A DNA stretch of 41,641 nucleotides, from IMG/VR virus record IMGVR_UViG_3300007351_000431, positions 1 through 41,641 of that record; one strand, given 5' to 3'. Within the stretch, counting starts at the first letter, position 1, and every line of letters begins with the position of its first letter. Position numbers and translations under genes: made by a program. This document shows positions 3,661-30,863 of this stretch, piece by piece. The notes under the pieces were generated by a model that worked only from the letters and a program-made list of their open reading frames with translations, had not been told where the DNA came from and searched no databases. This DNA comes from a virus.

Positions 3661-4287
3661 TTATTGTTTTTTCTCAGTTTGTCTACACTTATTTTGTGCA
3701 CATTTTATCCCTAGTTCTTTACATAATTTTTTAAGTTCAGGACAAATCAACCCCATTATTGTTTTAACATCTAAAGCATCTACAAATCCCTCGACAGCAG
3801 AGCCTTTGATATACACTTTGTCAGCTTTTTTAAATAAAGCTTTAATAGTTTCTGCACCACTAGTTTTAGAAATGCTTGGGGGTTCCGATAATCTAAGATA
3901 TCGAAGTACTCCTTTCATGTCTTTCAAGAACCAATCTTCTATAGAGCGTCTAGCTTTAACATGAATGACTTTTTTGGCACCACAAGCCTTTAGTTCCTGT
4001 TCGACCCCAGACCAAACCACTGGAGGGTTAGGAGAGAGATCGAACACGTCCGTATCATAACACAATACTACAGAAAAGTTTATCCCTGGGTCTCCACTAA
4101 TAACTTGTTTGGCGAACACTCTTTTTGCCTTGCTTTTATAATTTCCAATGCCTTTAAGGTTTCTTATAATCAGTTTATCAACTATAAATCGCTGTTCAGG
4201 GGCAAATGAGCGAAGCTGACTAATGATCTTTGAATAAAACTTTTTCTCTGTATCACCTTCAACGAAGATTACAATACCCTTACTCAT
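3661..4287 (-). CDS. Toprim-like protein, partner of the AAA ATPase
   Basis: The protein has 208 residues. It shows a Toprim-like pattern: a hydrophobic strand ending in VEGDTE (E10, E14), and later VVLCYDTDVFD, where D78 and D80 form a DxD pair. OLD-type nucleases, RloB/AbiL-like proteins and the AriB subunit of PARIS use this metal-binding arrangement. The chosen start, ATG 4287, overlaps the end of the ATPase gene by 8 bases, which suggests translational coupling; an ATG nine codons further upstream is less likely. Base composition is AT-rich, unlike the host genes to the left. The exact family is uncertain. Nuclease or effector function is inferred from motif and context. Confidence 0.65.
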   Translation of the reverse strand: MSKGIVIFVEGDTEKKFYSKIISQLRSFAPEQRFIVDKLIIRNLKGIGNYKSKAKRVFAKQVISGDPGINFSVVLCYDTDVFDLSPNPPVVWSGVEQELKACGAKKVIHVKARRSIEDWFLKDMKGVLRYLRLSEPPSISKTSGAETIKALFKKADKVYIKGSAVEGFVDALDVKTIMGLICPELKKLCKELGIKCAQNKCRQTEKKQ

Positions 4288-5578
4288 TATTACTAGTCTC
4301 CAAGTATTGCTCAATCATTTTTATGTCTTCTTCTGTACCACTGAGTAATTCAAATAAATAATCTCCAGTCGACATTTCCAAGCTAGTAGCATCATTAATT
4401 AGAGTTTTTTGGGCTGACATCCGTACTCGTTTAAATTGAGCAACACCATATTTCCCTGGTAATCCTACATATATATTACGTGGTTCGAGATATTTAATAA
4501 TATAAGGGGAGTGACTAGTAAAAATTATTCTAGACTTGCCTAGCAACTGTGACAAAACTCTTAAATAGCTCTGTAACAGACTTGGATGAATAGAATTTTC
4601 AGGTTCTTCAACCGCAATGAGCGAAAGATTATTTATATCAGCAATAATGATATTTGTTAACAACAGAAATACTCTTTTCGCGCCATCAGACATATCTTCG
4701 AAACTAACAGGTTGATTTAAATTATGATCATTTACATATAATACATACACTTCCTGACTTAATTTGAAGGGCAAATCATCAGGAATCTCTCCATGAAATT
4801 TTCCCTTAAAGGCAAGTTCTTCCACATTAATCTCCTTAATTTGAGGAAAAAGTTGCATGAATGCATTCTTAAGCAATTCATATTTTTCAGGATACTGCTT
4901 GCTCAAATGAAAAATTACTCGAGGCAGGTTGTCAGTTACTTCCATTTCTAATGCATTAAAATCCTTCCGAACTAGCGGATCAGGAGTGTATGAAGAACTA
5001 GCATCCAGATGACGTTCAATGTAAACCCTTAAGCCATTAATTTTTTTAATAATTTCGTAGTAATACAGTGAGTCAAATGCCTTCAATTTATTTACAATTA
5101 AATTATTGTCTTCTATGGAAATCTTACTACTACATCTACCTGATTCAGCACTGCGATAGAACGCCTTGTCCATATTTCTGCTTATTAAAGCTTTATACTT
5201 TTGATTTTTATTATCAAGTTTTGCTTTTAGCCACTCACCAACAATACAAGCACCCGTTTCATCATCTCTTACCCACCTAAACTGATATCCATATATTACA
5301 TTATATGTACTTCCGTCTATTGACATCTCCATCTCAAACTCTATTCGAAAGTCCTTTGAAGGCATGCTCTTATTTAAGGGAATACCCTTCGACCAGGACA
5401 TCATCCTTTTCTTAGTGTCTTCATTTTTTAAAATAAAATCTACACCAAAATCAATTGCCTGGAGTAAATTAGATTTGCCGTAACTGTTCAAAGACACTAA
5501 AGCAACCATCTCACTGCAAATTATTTCTGACATCCTAATGTTCCTGAACCCATCGACTGATATTCTACGCAACTTCAT
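4280..5578 (-). CDS. AAA_15/OLD-type ATPase
   Basis: The protein has 432 residues with the ABC-like head of SMC/OLD ATPases: an N-terminal strand and FRNI turn, a P-loop SLNSYGKSN at 29-37, an ABC-like signature MSDGAKR at 296-302, Walker B with catalytic acid LIAVEEPE at 320-327, and the H-loop TSHSP at 354-358. The first glycine of the P-loop is replaced by serine (S29). Start ATG 5578 is preceded by GGCGGGGGA; an upstream in-frame ATG is possible but lacks such a site. With the overlapping Toprim-like gene it resembles split OLD systems such as PARIS or AbiL, which sense phage infection. That role is inferred. Confidence 0.8.
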   Translation of the reverse strand: MKLRRISVDGFRNIRMSEIICSEMVALVSLNSYGKSNLLQAIDFGVDFILKNEDTKKRMMSWSKGIPLNKSMPSKDFRIEFEMEMSIDGSTYNVIYGYQFRWVRDDETGACIVGEWLKAKLDNKNQKYKALISRNMDKAFYRSAESGRCSSKISIEDNNLIVNKLKAFDSLYYYEIIKKINGLRVYIERHLDASSSYTPDPLVRKDFNALEMEVTDNLPRVIFHLSKQYPEKYELLKNAFMQLFPQIKEINVEELAFKGKFHGEIPDDLPFKLSQEVYVLYVNDHNLNQPVSFEDMSDGAKRVFLLLTNIIIADINNLSLIAVEEPENSIHPSLLQSYLRVLSQLLGKSRIIFTSHSPYIIKYLEPRNIYVGLPGKYGVAQFKRVRMSAQKTLINDATSLEMSTGDYLFELLSGTEEDIKMIEQYLETSNNE

Positions 5579-5645
5579 ATTCCCCCGCCTCTCTTTTACC
5601 TGTGTAATAATGCCCATTACCATCATAACATCCACCACCTAGATA

Positions 5646-26281: not shown

Positions 26282-26677
26282 ATGACAAAGGTGTATCCCA
26301 TTATCCTTACACCAACCGATCAAGGATACGTAGTAACTGTTCCCGACCTCGACATTAATACACAAGGTAAAGACCTCGCAGAAGCAATTTATATGGCTCG
26401 TGACGCTATTGGGCTTTGGGGAATATGCGAACAAGACGACGGACGTATTATCCCTGAACCTTCCACCTCTGAACCTCCGCATGAAGCCGATGAGCTTGTT
26501 TCATGGGTGGACATCGACTTTACGAGATATCGCAGAGCAAACGATATGACTACTATGCGAATCAATGTATCAGTTCCAAAGTATCTAAAAGTCCTCGGTG
26601 ATGAAGCTAATGTAAATTTTTCTCAGGTCCTCCAAGAAGGACTAAAAACCCGCCTCGGAATCGTTGAGCAGCCCTAA
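26282..26677 (+). CDS. hicB: HicB-type antitoxin
   Basis: This 131-residue antitoxin has the degenerate RNase H-like HicB domain (YPIILTPTDQGYVVTVPDLD, GKDLAEAIYMARDAIGLW) and a ribbon-helix-helix-like C-terminus (MRINVSVPKYLKVLG, FSQVLQEGLKTRLG). It would bind HicA and the operator in the shared promoter. An AAAGGAG site precedes ATG 26282. Only 37 bases separate it from hicA, and a terminator overlaps its stop codon. Confidence 0.9.
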   Translation: MTKVYPIILTPTDQGYVVTVPDLDINTQGKDLAEAIYMARDAIGLWGICEQDDGRIIPEPSTSEPPHEADELVSWVDIDFTRYRRANDMTTMRINVSVPKYLKVLGDEANVNFSQVLQEGLKTRLGIVEQP

Positions 26678-26843: not shown

Positions 26844-27167
26844 TTAAGCAAACTGCCATAGATCCAACACCCTTTTCACAGGCTTCTTCCGCTTTCGCCT
26901 CGACAGCCGGCTCCCGCTGCTGCGATAATCCCGGACCGGGATCAGCGGCAGCACTTCAGTATATCTGCCGCCGACGGCCCAACGCATCTGCTTTTGAAGC
27001 TGCTCTTCCTGCGCTCTAGTTCTCTCTTCGCTTTTAAGCAGCAGAAGCTTACTTTCATCATCCCAGAATTCCCCGTCACATCTGGGGCAGCACCAGAAGC
27101 CTTGTTTTTCGTAGATCATGATTTCGCCACATCGGGGACAATGCAGTATTTTTTCTGCTAAAATCAT
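26844..27167 (-). CDS. Zinc-ribbon phage protein
   Basis: The protein has 107 residues. The N-terminal HCPRCGEIMIYEKQGFWCCPRCDGEF part carries two CPRC knuckles (HCPRCGE and CCPRCDG) that form a zinc ribbon; the rest is charged and ends in a basic stretch (SRLSRRKRKKPVKRV). A nucleic-acid binding role, perhaps in late transcription control, is possible since it is the last early gene before the packaging module, but it is not recognised. Its ATG overlaps the upstream TGA (ATGA). Confidence 0.6.
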   Translation of the reverse strand: MILAEKILHCPRCGEIMIYEKQGFWCCPRCDGEFWDDESKLLLLKSEERTRAQEEQLQKQMRWAVGGRYTEVLPLIPVRDYRSSGSRLSRRKRKKPVKRVLDLWQFA

Positions 27168-27418
27168 AACGCTTCTTCACCACCTCTTCTATTACTTAAT
27201 AATTTACGTTTTATATTTTCAGGAATATCTCTGGTTAACCAGAATTCATGTTTTAAATTCGGCCTAAAATAACAACACCAATCACCTTCTCTTTTTTTGT
27301 GCAAGCACCCGTAATTTTTTACCTGGCGCCAACTCAGTAACCAGTTATGATATTTACATAAACCTATCTGGTTGAATTTTTTTGGCTTATAATAAGAGGC
27401 TCGTTTTACCCTTGCCAT
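27164..27418 (-). CDS. Small basic phage protein after a mini-ORF leader
   Basis: The protein has 84 residues, is basic (MARVKRASYYKPKKFNQIG) and has scattered cysteines and histidines (CKYHNW, YGCLHKKREGDWCCYF) that might bind metal. No family is recognised. ATG 27418 follows AAAGGAGG by 8 bases. The codon shares its A with the stop of the last of three tandem mini-ORFs (TGATG), so its translation is probably coupled to theirs. It overlaps the next gene by 4 bases. Confidence 0.6.
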   Translation of the reverse strand: MARVKRASYYKPKKFNQIGLCKYHNWLLSWRQVKNYGCLHKKREGDWCCYFRPNLKHEFWLTRDIPENIKRKLLSNRRGGEEAL

Positions 27419-27509
27419 CAACACTGCCTCCTTTCAAGGTATGCTCCCATATTTTTCCTCAAGGTATGCTTCCATATTTATCCTTAAGGTATGCTTCCAT
27501 ATTTATCCT
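27418..27509 (-). repeat. Three 25-bp tandem repeats, each with a mini-ORF
   Basis: Units at 27435-27459, 27460-27484 and 27485-27509 are head-to-tail copies with exact 25-base period; the last two differ at one base. On the minus strand each carries AGGATAAATATG or AGGAAAAATATG, a ribosome site plus start. The three starts (27500, 27475, 27450) open frames of 13, 13 and 10 codons: MEAYLKDKYGSIP, MEAYLEEKYGSIP and MGAYLERRQC. The first two overlap in different frames because 25 is not a multiple of 3. The third ends at TGATG over the start of the downstream gene. Confidence 0.7.
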
Positions 27510-27527: not shown

Positions 27528-27919
27528 AGTGGTACAGACTTTAATCCATGAAAGCCTTGGTATTACTGGATTCTTACCTATAGATAACTTGTCGTACTAA
27601 TGGAACCACCAAAATCCAGCAATGCCGGGCTAAAATTGGATTCTGTCGTACTACCAATTGTGTGGTGGTACAGAACAAAATAGGTCTCAAGCCTTGATAT
27701 ACTTGGTTCAAATTGTGTCTTGTACCACTGTACCACTGATTTTCGATATATATAATGTATATTTTTTATACCTATACCTTTAGGGTATACCTTAAGGTAG
27801 GGTATGTCCTATATGAATATATATATATAAATATTAGTGGTACAGTGGTACAATATATATATTATTCTTACAGCCCCAAGGCTTTTAGCTTGTACCACTC
27901 TTGTACCACTAGTACCACT
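27528..27919. repeat. TGTACCACT repeat region, candidate replication origin
   Basis: About nine copies of TGTACCACT or its complement occur at 27528, 27664 (variant), 27721, 27729, 27836, 27844, 27891, 27902 and 27911 (AGTACCACT). The pairs at 27721-27737 and 27836-27852 are exact 17-base inverted repeats. Between them lies an AT-rich tract with TATATA runs (about 27748-27835), as in a DNA unwinding element. The region has no plausible gene and sits just after the primase-helicase gene, where phage origins with iterons are common. Origin function is inferred. Confidence 0.6.
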
Positions 27920-27926
27920 ACAAAAA

Positions 27927-30863
27927 CTAACGGTTAATCACTTTAATAACCCTTGCTCTAACCCCGCTCTCAAGAATTTTCCCTGGAATATCATACCGAA
28001 TCTTCCCACCATGATGGTAACTATCAATTTTCCCGGCCGCAGCCCATTCCCGAATTATTCTTCGACTACTGGAAAATTGTTCTGATAAAAACCTGTCTAC
28101 TACACTGCGAATTACATAGAGATTCAAGCTTTCCCGATACCCAAACCGGGGCCCTGAGGCACGCTCTGTAAACCTGTCCTGGTTTTCAGCCAACCAGTCA
28201 ATAAATGTCTCCCAGGCTCTTTCTGGTTCGCTGGCCTCAGACCTGGTTACCAGCCCGGCCAGCACCTGGGCGGCAGTGCCCGTGGCGCCGGCCTTCGCCT
28301 GCTCCCAGGGTTCACCGAACACCCAGGATGACGCCAGGTAATCAGCAGTCGCTACGCAGGCCACGGCGTCGATATGGCTGTCAACGCAGTCCGGATAGGA
28401 TATCCTGAACCCAGCCTGAAATTCGCGGTACGTGGTAAAAATAGCCCCGTAGTCAGCCGCCAGCAACTGAGCCAGGAATTCAGGTCCTGCATGGCCGTGA
28501 TTTCTCGGCAGGAAATAATACAGACCGCGGGCAAACTCGCGGTCATGCGCCAGAGGACCGTCGCAAACTTCCAGTACCCGGGTCATAACACCTTCCAAGG
28601 AACCGGTATTGGACAGCGTGCCTTCCCCTGTAGATAGCATAATGGTCCGCCAGGTGGCCAAGTTCTGTAGCCCGGTTTTAGTTCCCCGGCCGCGGCCCCG
28701 GCCTTCGCCCAGGATGTATAACAGCGGGTTGATATCCTGTTTTTTGAACCTGTTTAAAACCTCACGCTCATTAACGGCCAGCGGCAAGTCAGAATGCAAT
28801 GCGGCCTTGCGCTCCATGGCCGTGGCGGTGGCGTCAAACGTTCCAATCAACAGGTCCGGGTTCCCCCATACCGACATGACCGCCCAAAGGGTTGCCGTTT
28901 TTCCGTCCTGACTACCACCCCAGTTGTGCAGGATGAAGTTCCGCTGGCCCAGGATCCGGAGCAATGGCGCCGCGAAGCTGGCCGCCAGGATGAACCTGGC
29001 CTTTGGTGACTGCCGCAGGTACTGCATCCTGGAGATCCATTCCTCCCGGGTACCGGCCGTGGTGAAGCCGGAAATTGTCCGCTGGCTGCCGTCGTCGTCG
29101 TTATCGATGCGGTACCGGCTTGAAAAATTCGGGAGAACAAATTCACGGTCACCACGCCAGCCCAGCTTTGACACAGCCTGGGAAACAGGTATGGTATCAC
29201 GGTTAATGTCCGCAAGAGCATCAAACCATTTAACCAGATATTTAGATGATTCACTGGATACCGGTACCCCGAAGTCTGCCATCCGCAGGATTTTTCTGGC
29301 ATCGAAAATAGTTGACCGCGGAAACAGCACCCGGCGCCACCCGTTCAAGTATTGGAAGCAAATTTCAAGTTTCTCGGTTTCCGTATCCACATTAAAAATA
29401 CGTTCTGTAATAATCACTGGGGCGCCGGCGGCTTTATAGGTCATGATGTCCCCGGATCTTGTCTCCTTGACGAACAGGATACCTGATTTTTCGAATTTAA
29501 AGTTCGGTGGCAACGCCAGGTCCACCGGTAATTCCGGAACGGTATTCCTGAGCATCCTGGTACCCGGCGGTGTCTCCCCGGGCGAATTGTCTGAAGTCTC
29601 ACCTGTCTGAACTAAATGATAGGGATTTTCCTGTCGAGCGTGCTGCCGGTGCTGCTTGATATTTTTTTCAAGATCATTCAGGTTGACGCGGCCCTTGCAG
29701 GAAGCCTTGAATTTAGCGTATTCGGCCTGGTCGTGTTTTTTTATAATCGCCAGGGCCCCCAGGACCTCCGGGACGAATACAGCTTCCGGAGTAGGCGCCG
29801 GGATCCCCCGGACGACGGCCCGGGCCTGCGCTACTTTGGATAAGCTCCATCCGCAGGGGGCCTGCACGCCGCACCCGTCCGGCGGGCAGCCCTGGAATCC
29901 GATAGCTTTCTGAATGTACTCGCATGACTGCGGATTCATGGCTAGGGCCTCATTGATTTTTTTGTCAGTATCCTCAGGTCGGTACCGCCCAGGGTCCAGG
30001 GCGGAAAACTGGTGGACTGCTTGGATGCCGTCCGATGCCCGGACAATATTTGTCAGCGCCGCCAGCCATTCGTCATAAGCGATGCTGGCAGCGTTCAGTT
30101 GGCAGTGCTGCAAGAAGCGGCAGGAACGGATCATGAGTTCCGCCAGGCCGTCAGTCGGCCGGCGCTCGAATGCCGCTGTTCGGCCAGGGGCGATAGTGCC
30201 GGTTTCGACCGGTGGTAGCAGATCCTCAATTTCCGAAGGGTTGTATCTGATATCGCCCTGCTCAATAATCTGGGCCATGACCGGGTTGTCCGGTTGTTTC
30301 TGGTTCATGATTCCAGGTACCCGTAAGACCCGGGTCAGGTCCGCGGTGGTGTCGATTTTCCAACCACGGCTGGCGGCATTTTGTTTTACTACGGCCTGCA
30401 GTGCCCGAAGTAAGCCGGCGGCCTGGCCGCGCTCCTCAGGCGTGTCAAATTCCCAGGGCTCCCGAAAGAGCCAGTACGCATGGATGCCGTACCCGCTCCA
30501 GATCACCATTGACGGCGGGAGTTCATCAGGTAGAAGCTCCATGGCAGCCGGTATGTCAGGAGGGAGCTCCTGGACCTTATGAACCGGGTGTTTGATATCG
30601 ATATCCACCCACAGGCCTGGAATGGCCGCAATTTCCTCGTTTTTGGGCCGCTCATATTGTCCCAGGCCTGTGGCAGTCACCCCAACACCGAAATATACGT
30701 CATGATGGGCAGCCGCCAACTGGCTGGCGGTTTTTGCCATCGCCTGGATGTCGCCGGCGGAAAACGGGTATGTTTTCCGCCCGGACAACGTCCATAGGTA
30801 AAGATAATATTTAGGATCAAGGTACTCATACAGGGAGAATAGAAAGTCGTATATAGGTTTCAA
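27927..30863 (-). CDS. Phage AEP primase-helicase (DUF927-type)
   Basis: The 978-residue replication protein starts with an archaeo-eukaryotic primase-like domain: LWVDIDI (D87, D89), SGYGIHAYW (123-131, the sGxGxH motif) and DLTRVLRVPG (175-184). A four-cysteine cluster follows at C314, C326, C331 and C337. The C-terminal half is a DUF927-type helicase with P-loop GGSQDGKT (649-656). The end looks like a winged helix (VDRFLSEQFSSSRRIIREW). It would prime and unwind at the neighbouring repeat region. Its stop codon is eight bases from the last repeat. Confidence 0.85.
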   Translation of the reverse strand: MKPIYDFLFSLYEYLDPKYYLYLWTLSGRKTYPFSAGDIQAMAKTASQLAAAHHDVYFGVGVTATGLGQYERPKNEEIAAIPGLWVDIDIKHPVHKVQELPPDIPAAMELLPDELPPSMVIWSGYGIHAYWLFREPWEFDTPEERGQAAGLLRALQAVVKQNAASRGWKIDTTADLTRVLRVPGIMNQKQPDNPVMAQIIEQGDIRYNPSEIEDLLPPVETGTIAPGRTAAFERRPTDGLAELMIRSCRFLQHCQLNAASIAYDEWLAALTNIVRASDGIQAVHQFSALDPGRYRPEDTDKKINEALAMNPQSCEYIQKAIGFQGCPPDGCGVQAPCGWSLSKVAQARAVVRGIPAPTPEAVFVPEVLGALAIIKKHDQAEYAKFKASCKGRVNLNDLEKNIKQHRQHARQENPYHLVQTGETSDNSPGETPPGTRMLRNTVPELPVDLALPPNFKFEKSGILFVKETRSGDIMTYKAAGAPVIITERIFNVDTETEKLEICFQYLNGWRRVLFPRSTIFDARKILRMADFGVPVSSESSKYLVKWFDALADINRDTIPVSQAVSKLGWRGDREFVLPNFSSRYRIDNDDDGSQRTISGFTTAGTREEWISRMQYLRQSPKARFILAASFAAPLLRILGQRNFILHNWGGSQDGKTATLWAVMSVWGNPDLLIGTFDATATAMERKAALHSDLPLAVNEREVLNRFKKQDINPLLYILGEGRGRGRGTKTGLQNLATWRTIMLSTGEGTLSNTGSLEGVMTRVLEVCDGPLAHDREFARGLYYFLPRNHGHAGPEFLAQLLAADYGAIFTTYREFQAGFRISYPDCVDSHIDAVACVATADYLASSWVFGEPWEQAKAGATGTAAQVLAGLVTRSEASEPERAWETFIDWLAENQDRFTERASGPRFGYRESLNLYVIRSVVDRFLSEQFSSSRRIIREWAAAGKIDSYHHGGKIRYDIPGKILESGVRARVIKVINR

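Follow-up and report, generated by a model that had tools for sequence, protein, structure and literature searches.

A candidate bipartite replication origin of the SaPI/PICI iteron type adjoining a primase-helicase gene in a tailed prophage

The stretch of DNA analysed here, referred to throughout as the window, comprises 41,641 nucleotides and carries at positions 27528-27919 an array of short repeats that is, in all probability, a phage replication origin of the bipartite iteron type known from SaPIs and PICIs, bound and opened by the initiator-helicase encoded beside it. An earlier note on this DNA had proposed a candidate phage origin with iterons; that proposal is supported by the anatomy of the array, its conservation among relatives, the fold matches of the adjacent protein and published precedent, and an origin is the best supported of the readings considered.

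The array occupies 392 bp and contains seven exact copies of the 9-mer TGTACCACT, starting at 27528(-), 27721(+), 27729(+), 27836(-), 27844(-), 27891(+) and 27902(+), together with two copies bearing one mismatch that start at 27664(-) and 27911(+). Exact copies in the remainder of the window are confined to 4334 and 22926. When one mismatch is allowed the whole window holds 15 copies, compared with a shuffle mean of 5.2 and a shuffle maximum of 11, and the Poisson probability of at least nine copies in 392 bp is approximately 4e-18. The centre of the array is formed by two inner iteron pairs, each with an 8-bp period, in which 27721-27737 on the plus strand (TGTACCACTGTACCACT) is the exact reverse complement of 27836-27852 on the minus strand; this 17-bp inverted repeat extends to 24 nt at 92% identity. 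Between the pairs lies a 98-bp core (27738-27835), the putative DNA unwinding element, whose length is conserved in relatives and whose AT content of 78%, against a window mean of 52%, is equalled or exceeded in 82 of 41,542 sliding windows. On the gene side, three outer iterons follow on the plus strand, the exact copies at 27891-27899 and 27902-27910 and the one-mismatch copy AGTACCACT at 27911-27919, which is the nearest to the initiator stop codon and lies 7 bp from it, on the 3' side of the gene. The far side carries a one-mismatch iteron on the minus strand, TGTACCACC (27664-27672), matched in relatives by an iteron of the same orientation at approximately +50 to +65 relative to the inner pair, and an exact, outermost iteron at 27528-27536, also on the minus strand. 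A degenerate repeat read by eye, TGTCGTACTA, occurs at 27644-27653 (+) and again at 27590-27599; it matches the iteron core weakly and is possibly a decayed far-side iteron.

The anatomy described in the earlier note was thus recovered, including about nine copies of the 9-mer in fewer than 400 bases, two overlapping pairs forming an exact 17-base inverted repeat around an AT-rich tract and an adjoining AEP primase-helicase gene, and the count of the 9-mer that it called for, made over the whole window, gave two exact copies outside the array versus seven inside. The GC-skew analysis it had also suggested was carried out and revealed no turning point at the array; skew is uninformative on the origin here because nearly all genes share one strand. 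The AT-rich core does not form a significant hairpin relative to shuffled sequences (z of -1.4 in the window and -1.0 to +0.1 in relatives), and a search of Rfam returned a single sub-threshold miRNA match that is attributable to chance. Three tandem 25-bp repeats, TCAAGGTATGCTTCCATATTTATCC, 88-100% alike, are present at 27434-27508, between the putative origin and the start of the gene at 27164-27424.

The putative initiator gene (27927-30863, minus strand), assigned by Pfam and predicted fold, encodes a protein of 978 amino acids. The order of its domains is an archaeo-eukaryotic primase (AEP) domain at approximately residues 1-217, a Cys-rich/linker region, a DUF927 MCM-like AAA+ helicase at 455-731 and a Cch-type winged helix, HTH_56, at 881-975. 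Pfam matches are to PF06048 (2.9e-48) and PF18662 (4.8e-11), with further matches to phage families of primase and primase/helicase type, and domain searches found no Rep_3-type domain in the protein. A structure model built from 29 homologues has a pLDDT of 84.8, but its pTM of 0.51 leaves the arrangement of the domains relative to one another uncertain. Residues 448-978 are predicted to fold like SaPIbov1 Rep (8tch; Z 32.7 over 458 residues, rmsd 4.8), and residues 437-978 like SCCmec Cch (5dgk; Z 29.6). Residues 1-217 match AEP primases, namely S-2L PrimPol (6zp9; Z 18.5) and RepB' (3h20; Z 14.1), and both AEP motifs, WVDID (with D87 and D89) and SGYGIH, are for the most part retained across 15 relatives. 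With the predicted fold and the catalytic DxD...sxH motifs both present, the N-terminal domain is assigned to the AEPs.

From the biochemistry of SaPI Rep and Cch2, we infer that the array functions through iteron binding, core melting and priming. The C-terminal winged helix of the 978-residue protein would bind the iterons, and the opposed inner pairs would place two helicase assemblies face to face across the core. Melting of the AT-rich core would then allow the helicases to load and subsequently travel outwards, while the AEP domain, carried on the same chain, would synthesise primers to be extended by the host DNA polymerase.

The array is maintained in close relatives. Two phages whose initiators are 73-75% identical to that of the window (L044 and L046) possess the identical 9-mer in the same position and layout. 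Two others, with initiators about 66-71% identical (L037 and L119), carry TGTGACACT at all positions, and a fifth, at 67% identity (L053), carries (T)GCCCAGT in all copies, the layout being kept in each case. A concerted change of all copies with retention of the layout is the pattern expected of sites read by one protein. In L053 (7900-7952), L042 (7880-7943) and L046 (7930-7964) the reading frame of the initiator extends into the outer iterons, and the repeats thus encode its C-terminal end (GQTGQGLGQA, for example). Relatives in named genomes belong to Peptococcaceae, Desulfosporosinus, Pelosinus and other Bacillota. An exact 16-mer scan of IMG/VR gave 15 matches, of which those in L010, L012, L015-L017 and L019 are isolated and probably due to chance; the repeat letters alone are therefore a poor search key. 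A first scan of genome contigs with the single protein sequence gave no match, and one alignment proved too diverged for that purpose.

By alignment, 401 relatives were identified in IMG/VR, the best 80 of which were taken; after six annotated phage and plasmid loci had been added, 61 intact, non-redundant initiators (<80% identical) constituted the survey set. Loci were chosen by initiator homology alone and control tiles were drawn from the same loci. Each locus was scored by the most frequent 7-mer within 450 bp downstream of the stop codon, at least six occurrences being taken as a cluster, a count that overlooks weak arrays and could include unrelated repeats. By this measure a cluster lies 3' of the gene for 46 of the 61 initiators, compared with 7 of 1299 control tiles, and on the upstream side of the 61 genes the 7-mer count never reaches five. 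For 12 of the 61 relatives the 7-mer count gives no clear cluster; inspection by eye revealed weak or displaced arrays in L053, L054, L024 and L025. Four of the seven control matches fall in three loci that lack a cluster just 3' of the gene (two in L051, one each in L096 and L110), suggesting that some origins may be displaced. Among named bacterial genomes, 8 of 14 loci have at least six copies and two more have four or five.

The repeat letters vary between phages, and include AGTGGTACA, AGTGTCACA, AGTGGGATA, AGTGGTCTCA, AGTCGGTTCA, AGGTAACCGA and TAGGTGAAACA among others, while the spacing is stereotyped across the family. A core could be recognised in 55 origins, and the start-to-start gap across it is 77-128 bp (median 98). 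The outer direct repeats are mostly spaced by 12 or 11 bp, and on the far side an opposed copy is typically found near +54, with forward copies near +75 and +92. Inner pairs mostly have a spacing of 7-9 bp at either edge of the core, with 9 bp prevailing on the gene side. The 8-bp inner period, which had been considered unusual in the earlier note, is therefore normal for the family.

Several lines of evidence indicate which part of the initiator the iterons follow. Such arrays occur in the phages THSA-485A, which has a CHC2-type primase region, FP_Epona, with a DnaG-type primase, and phiRg507T2 and Jekyll, with a separate primase gene, all of which have only the helicase/winged-helix part in common with the window protein; the array therefore tracks the helicase and winged helix and not the AEP. 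Across 74 initiator-repeat pairs, repeat similarity correlates with the identity of the winged helix (partial Mantel 0.19; 0 of 300 permutations) and with that of the preceding linker (0.17; 0 of 300 permutations), whereas the correlation with the AAA+ core is approximately zero. Assignment of iteron specificity to the winged helix alone was rejected, as the linker correlates nearly as well. Over 925 positions there are 27 differences between L074 and L071, most of them in the winged helix and the C-terminal tail, and the two are identical over the AAA+ segment compared (600-770); their repeats are AGGCGTAAGG and AGGCGATAGG, respectively. The wing ITSTPKANGGKEYCIRKWF and the iteron AGGCGTAAGG occur together in L068, L074, L084 and the more distant L076, and the wing IASQPKKNGGREYSISKWF is likewise paired with AGGCGATAGG in L071 and L075. 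These pairings suggest a recognition code in which the wing reads the repeat, a code that is not proven because the end of the gene adjoins the origin and co-inheritance could give the same signal.

Similar arrays were also observed in other settings. L005 encodes a protein that shares the AEP half but has a D5-type helicase, followed after 6429 by its own repeats, AGTGACA/TGTCACT; downstream iterons are thus not limited to DUF927 helicases. Three gut phages, L008 (7540-7690), L018 (4325-4480) and L020 (5025-5180), contain TGTACCACT/GGTACA arrays with the same paired, opposed layout around an AT-rich tract, located between repressor and integrase genes. No DUF927 gene was found in these three records, that of L020 having a D5-type helicase elsewhere, and the arrays possibly represent an origin separated from its initiator. 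L009 (4430-4880) has TGTACCAC repeats in opposed pairs with an AT-rich core near terminase-like genes, and its record gave no match to DUF927 or D5_N.

Counting against an origin are the GC skew, which lends it no support, the 12 of 61 relatives without a clear cluster, and the like-lettered arrays that occur without a DUF927 gene in L008, L018 and L020. Alternative functions were also weighed. The earlier note had named primer sites for the primase as one of two suggestions. On a reading of that kind, single-stranded TGTACCACT would serve as primer template and the helicase would be positioned otherwise. SCCmec CCPol-MP primes in vitro at an iteron region, TACCACTTAAT, that has TACCACT in common with the window iteron (PMC7581432), and the AEP fold matches RepB', the structure of which includes its initiator DNA (3h25). 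However, like arrays occur in relatives with CHC2/DnaG-type or separate primases, facing double-stranded sites with an AT core between them are the architecture of an initiator that binds duplex DNA, and the repeat letters track the C-terminal domain rather than the core. We therefore regard primer synthesis as a very improbable primary role for the repeats; some priming at the iterons is possible.

It is slightly less probable still that the array comprises arm-type sites of a phage integrase, a partition site or an operator for downstream genes. The same repeat does lie between repressor and integrase genes in L008, L018 and L020, and the downstream gene at 27164-27424 is transcribed away from the array, but the window proteins that were scanned include neither an integrase nor ParA/ParB, promoter-like sites around the array are close in number to the shuffle mean, and throughout the family the array is 3' of the initiator gene and absent upstream of it. 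Finally, degeneracy of two copies in the array and the presence of two exact copies in other parts of the window might be expected of chance or of a decaying, functionless repeat family. The probability given above counts against this explanation and the comparative data, in which the layout is conserved while the sequence changes in concert across phages, refute it; we attach almost no weight to it.

The element that carries the putative origin is a prophage, that is, a complete tailed phage and not a satellite. The window encodes TerL, a small terminase, portal, prohead protease, capsid, tail tape measure and amidase, as well as SSB, ERF, a BRO-type protein and a cI-like repressor, and a flank encodes an HflX-like protein, so named from its sequence, which we take to mark host chromosome next to the phage. 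PICIs are helper-dependent satellites without a capsid, portal and large-terminase set of their own; this element encodes terminase, portal, capsid and tail and is therefore a phage, the PICI type applying to its replication module only. Among the genes of the window, none was recognised as encoding a DNA polymerase. An AAA_21/AbiEii-like ATPase gene and a small neighbour (3661-5638) lie at the prophage edge and possibly form a defence cassette, and a HicB-like antitoxin gene at 26282-26677 lies on the strand opposite to its neighbours, with no HicA partner recognised.

If the origin reading is correct, this phage group gains a concrete, testable origin and initiator, and the presence of a PICI-type origin in complete phages bears on the source of PICI replication modules. 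Approximately 70 initiator-repeat pairs are now collected and could be used to work out origin recognition by a self-loading helicase. A broader proposition, on which we are evenly divided, is that origin geometry is fixed while the letters drift with the initiator wing, producing a decipherable code and many mutually private origins, with PICI modules as one branch of a family widespread in complete phages. Private origins of this kind would be the phage and satellite counterpart of incompatibility groups.

Comparison with known systems places the module closest to SaPIs and SCCmec. In PICIs the origin directly follows the 3' end of rep and has an AT-rich region bounded by two sets of iterons (PMC6092414), and this bipartite rep-ori layout has been published as unique to PICIs; judging from the loci collected here, it also occurs in complete tailed phages, and it was found in dozens of phages, each with its own repeat. 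Among open papers, a full-text search combining DUF927, iteron and phage returned PMC7581432 only; subscription papers fall mostly outside such a search, and earlier phage cases are conceivable. The window shares with the SaPI/PICI rep-ori (SaPIbov1 Rep, 8tch) an initiator helicase of the same fold, an origin immediately 3' of the gene and two iteron sets around an AT-rich region, a layout also present at the rep gene of the SaPI-like PT1028, with the repeat GTTCCC. It differs in residing in a complete tailed phage, in the fusion of an AEP primase to the Cch/SaPIbov1-type helicase and in its iteron letters. The C-terminal domain of Cch2 binds direct repeats downstream of the Cch2 gene, in a region that includes TACCACTTAAT (PMC7581432), and the SCCmec Cch/Cch2-CCPol-MP system (5dgk) accordingly resembles the window in its Cch fold with a C-terminal winged helix, in iterons downstream of the helicase gene and in the shared TACCACT; Cch2, however, has only three 5-nt iterons, and CCPol-MP is a separately encoded primase that is not an AEP. 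The pRN1 protein ORF904 and other AEP-SF3 initiators likewise combine AEP, helicase and winged helix, with an origin downstream of their own gene (PMC4234260), but pRN1 employs a 100-nt stem-loop in place of iterons, and an SF3 helicase, whereas the window core folds no better than shuffled sequences. Classical iteron plasmids (Rep_3/RepA with DnaA boxes) also have direct repeats and an AT-rich region; the window differs in having short 9-bp sites, set 8-11 bp apart in opposed groups, and an initiator that is itself an MCM-like helicase. In layout and initiator the window matches the PICI and Cch systems, and its putative origin therefore belongs to their kind, here carried by a full phage.
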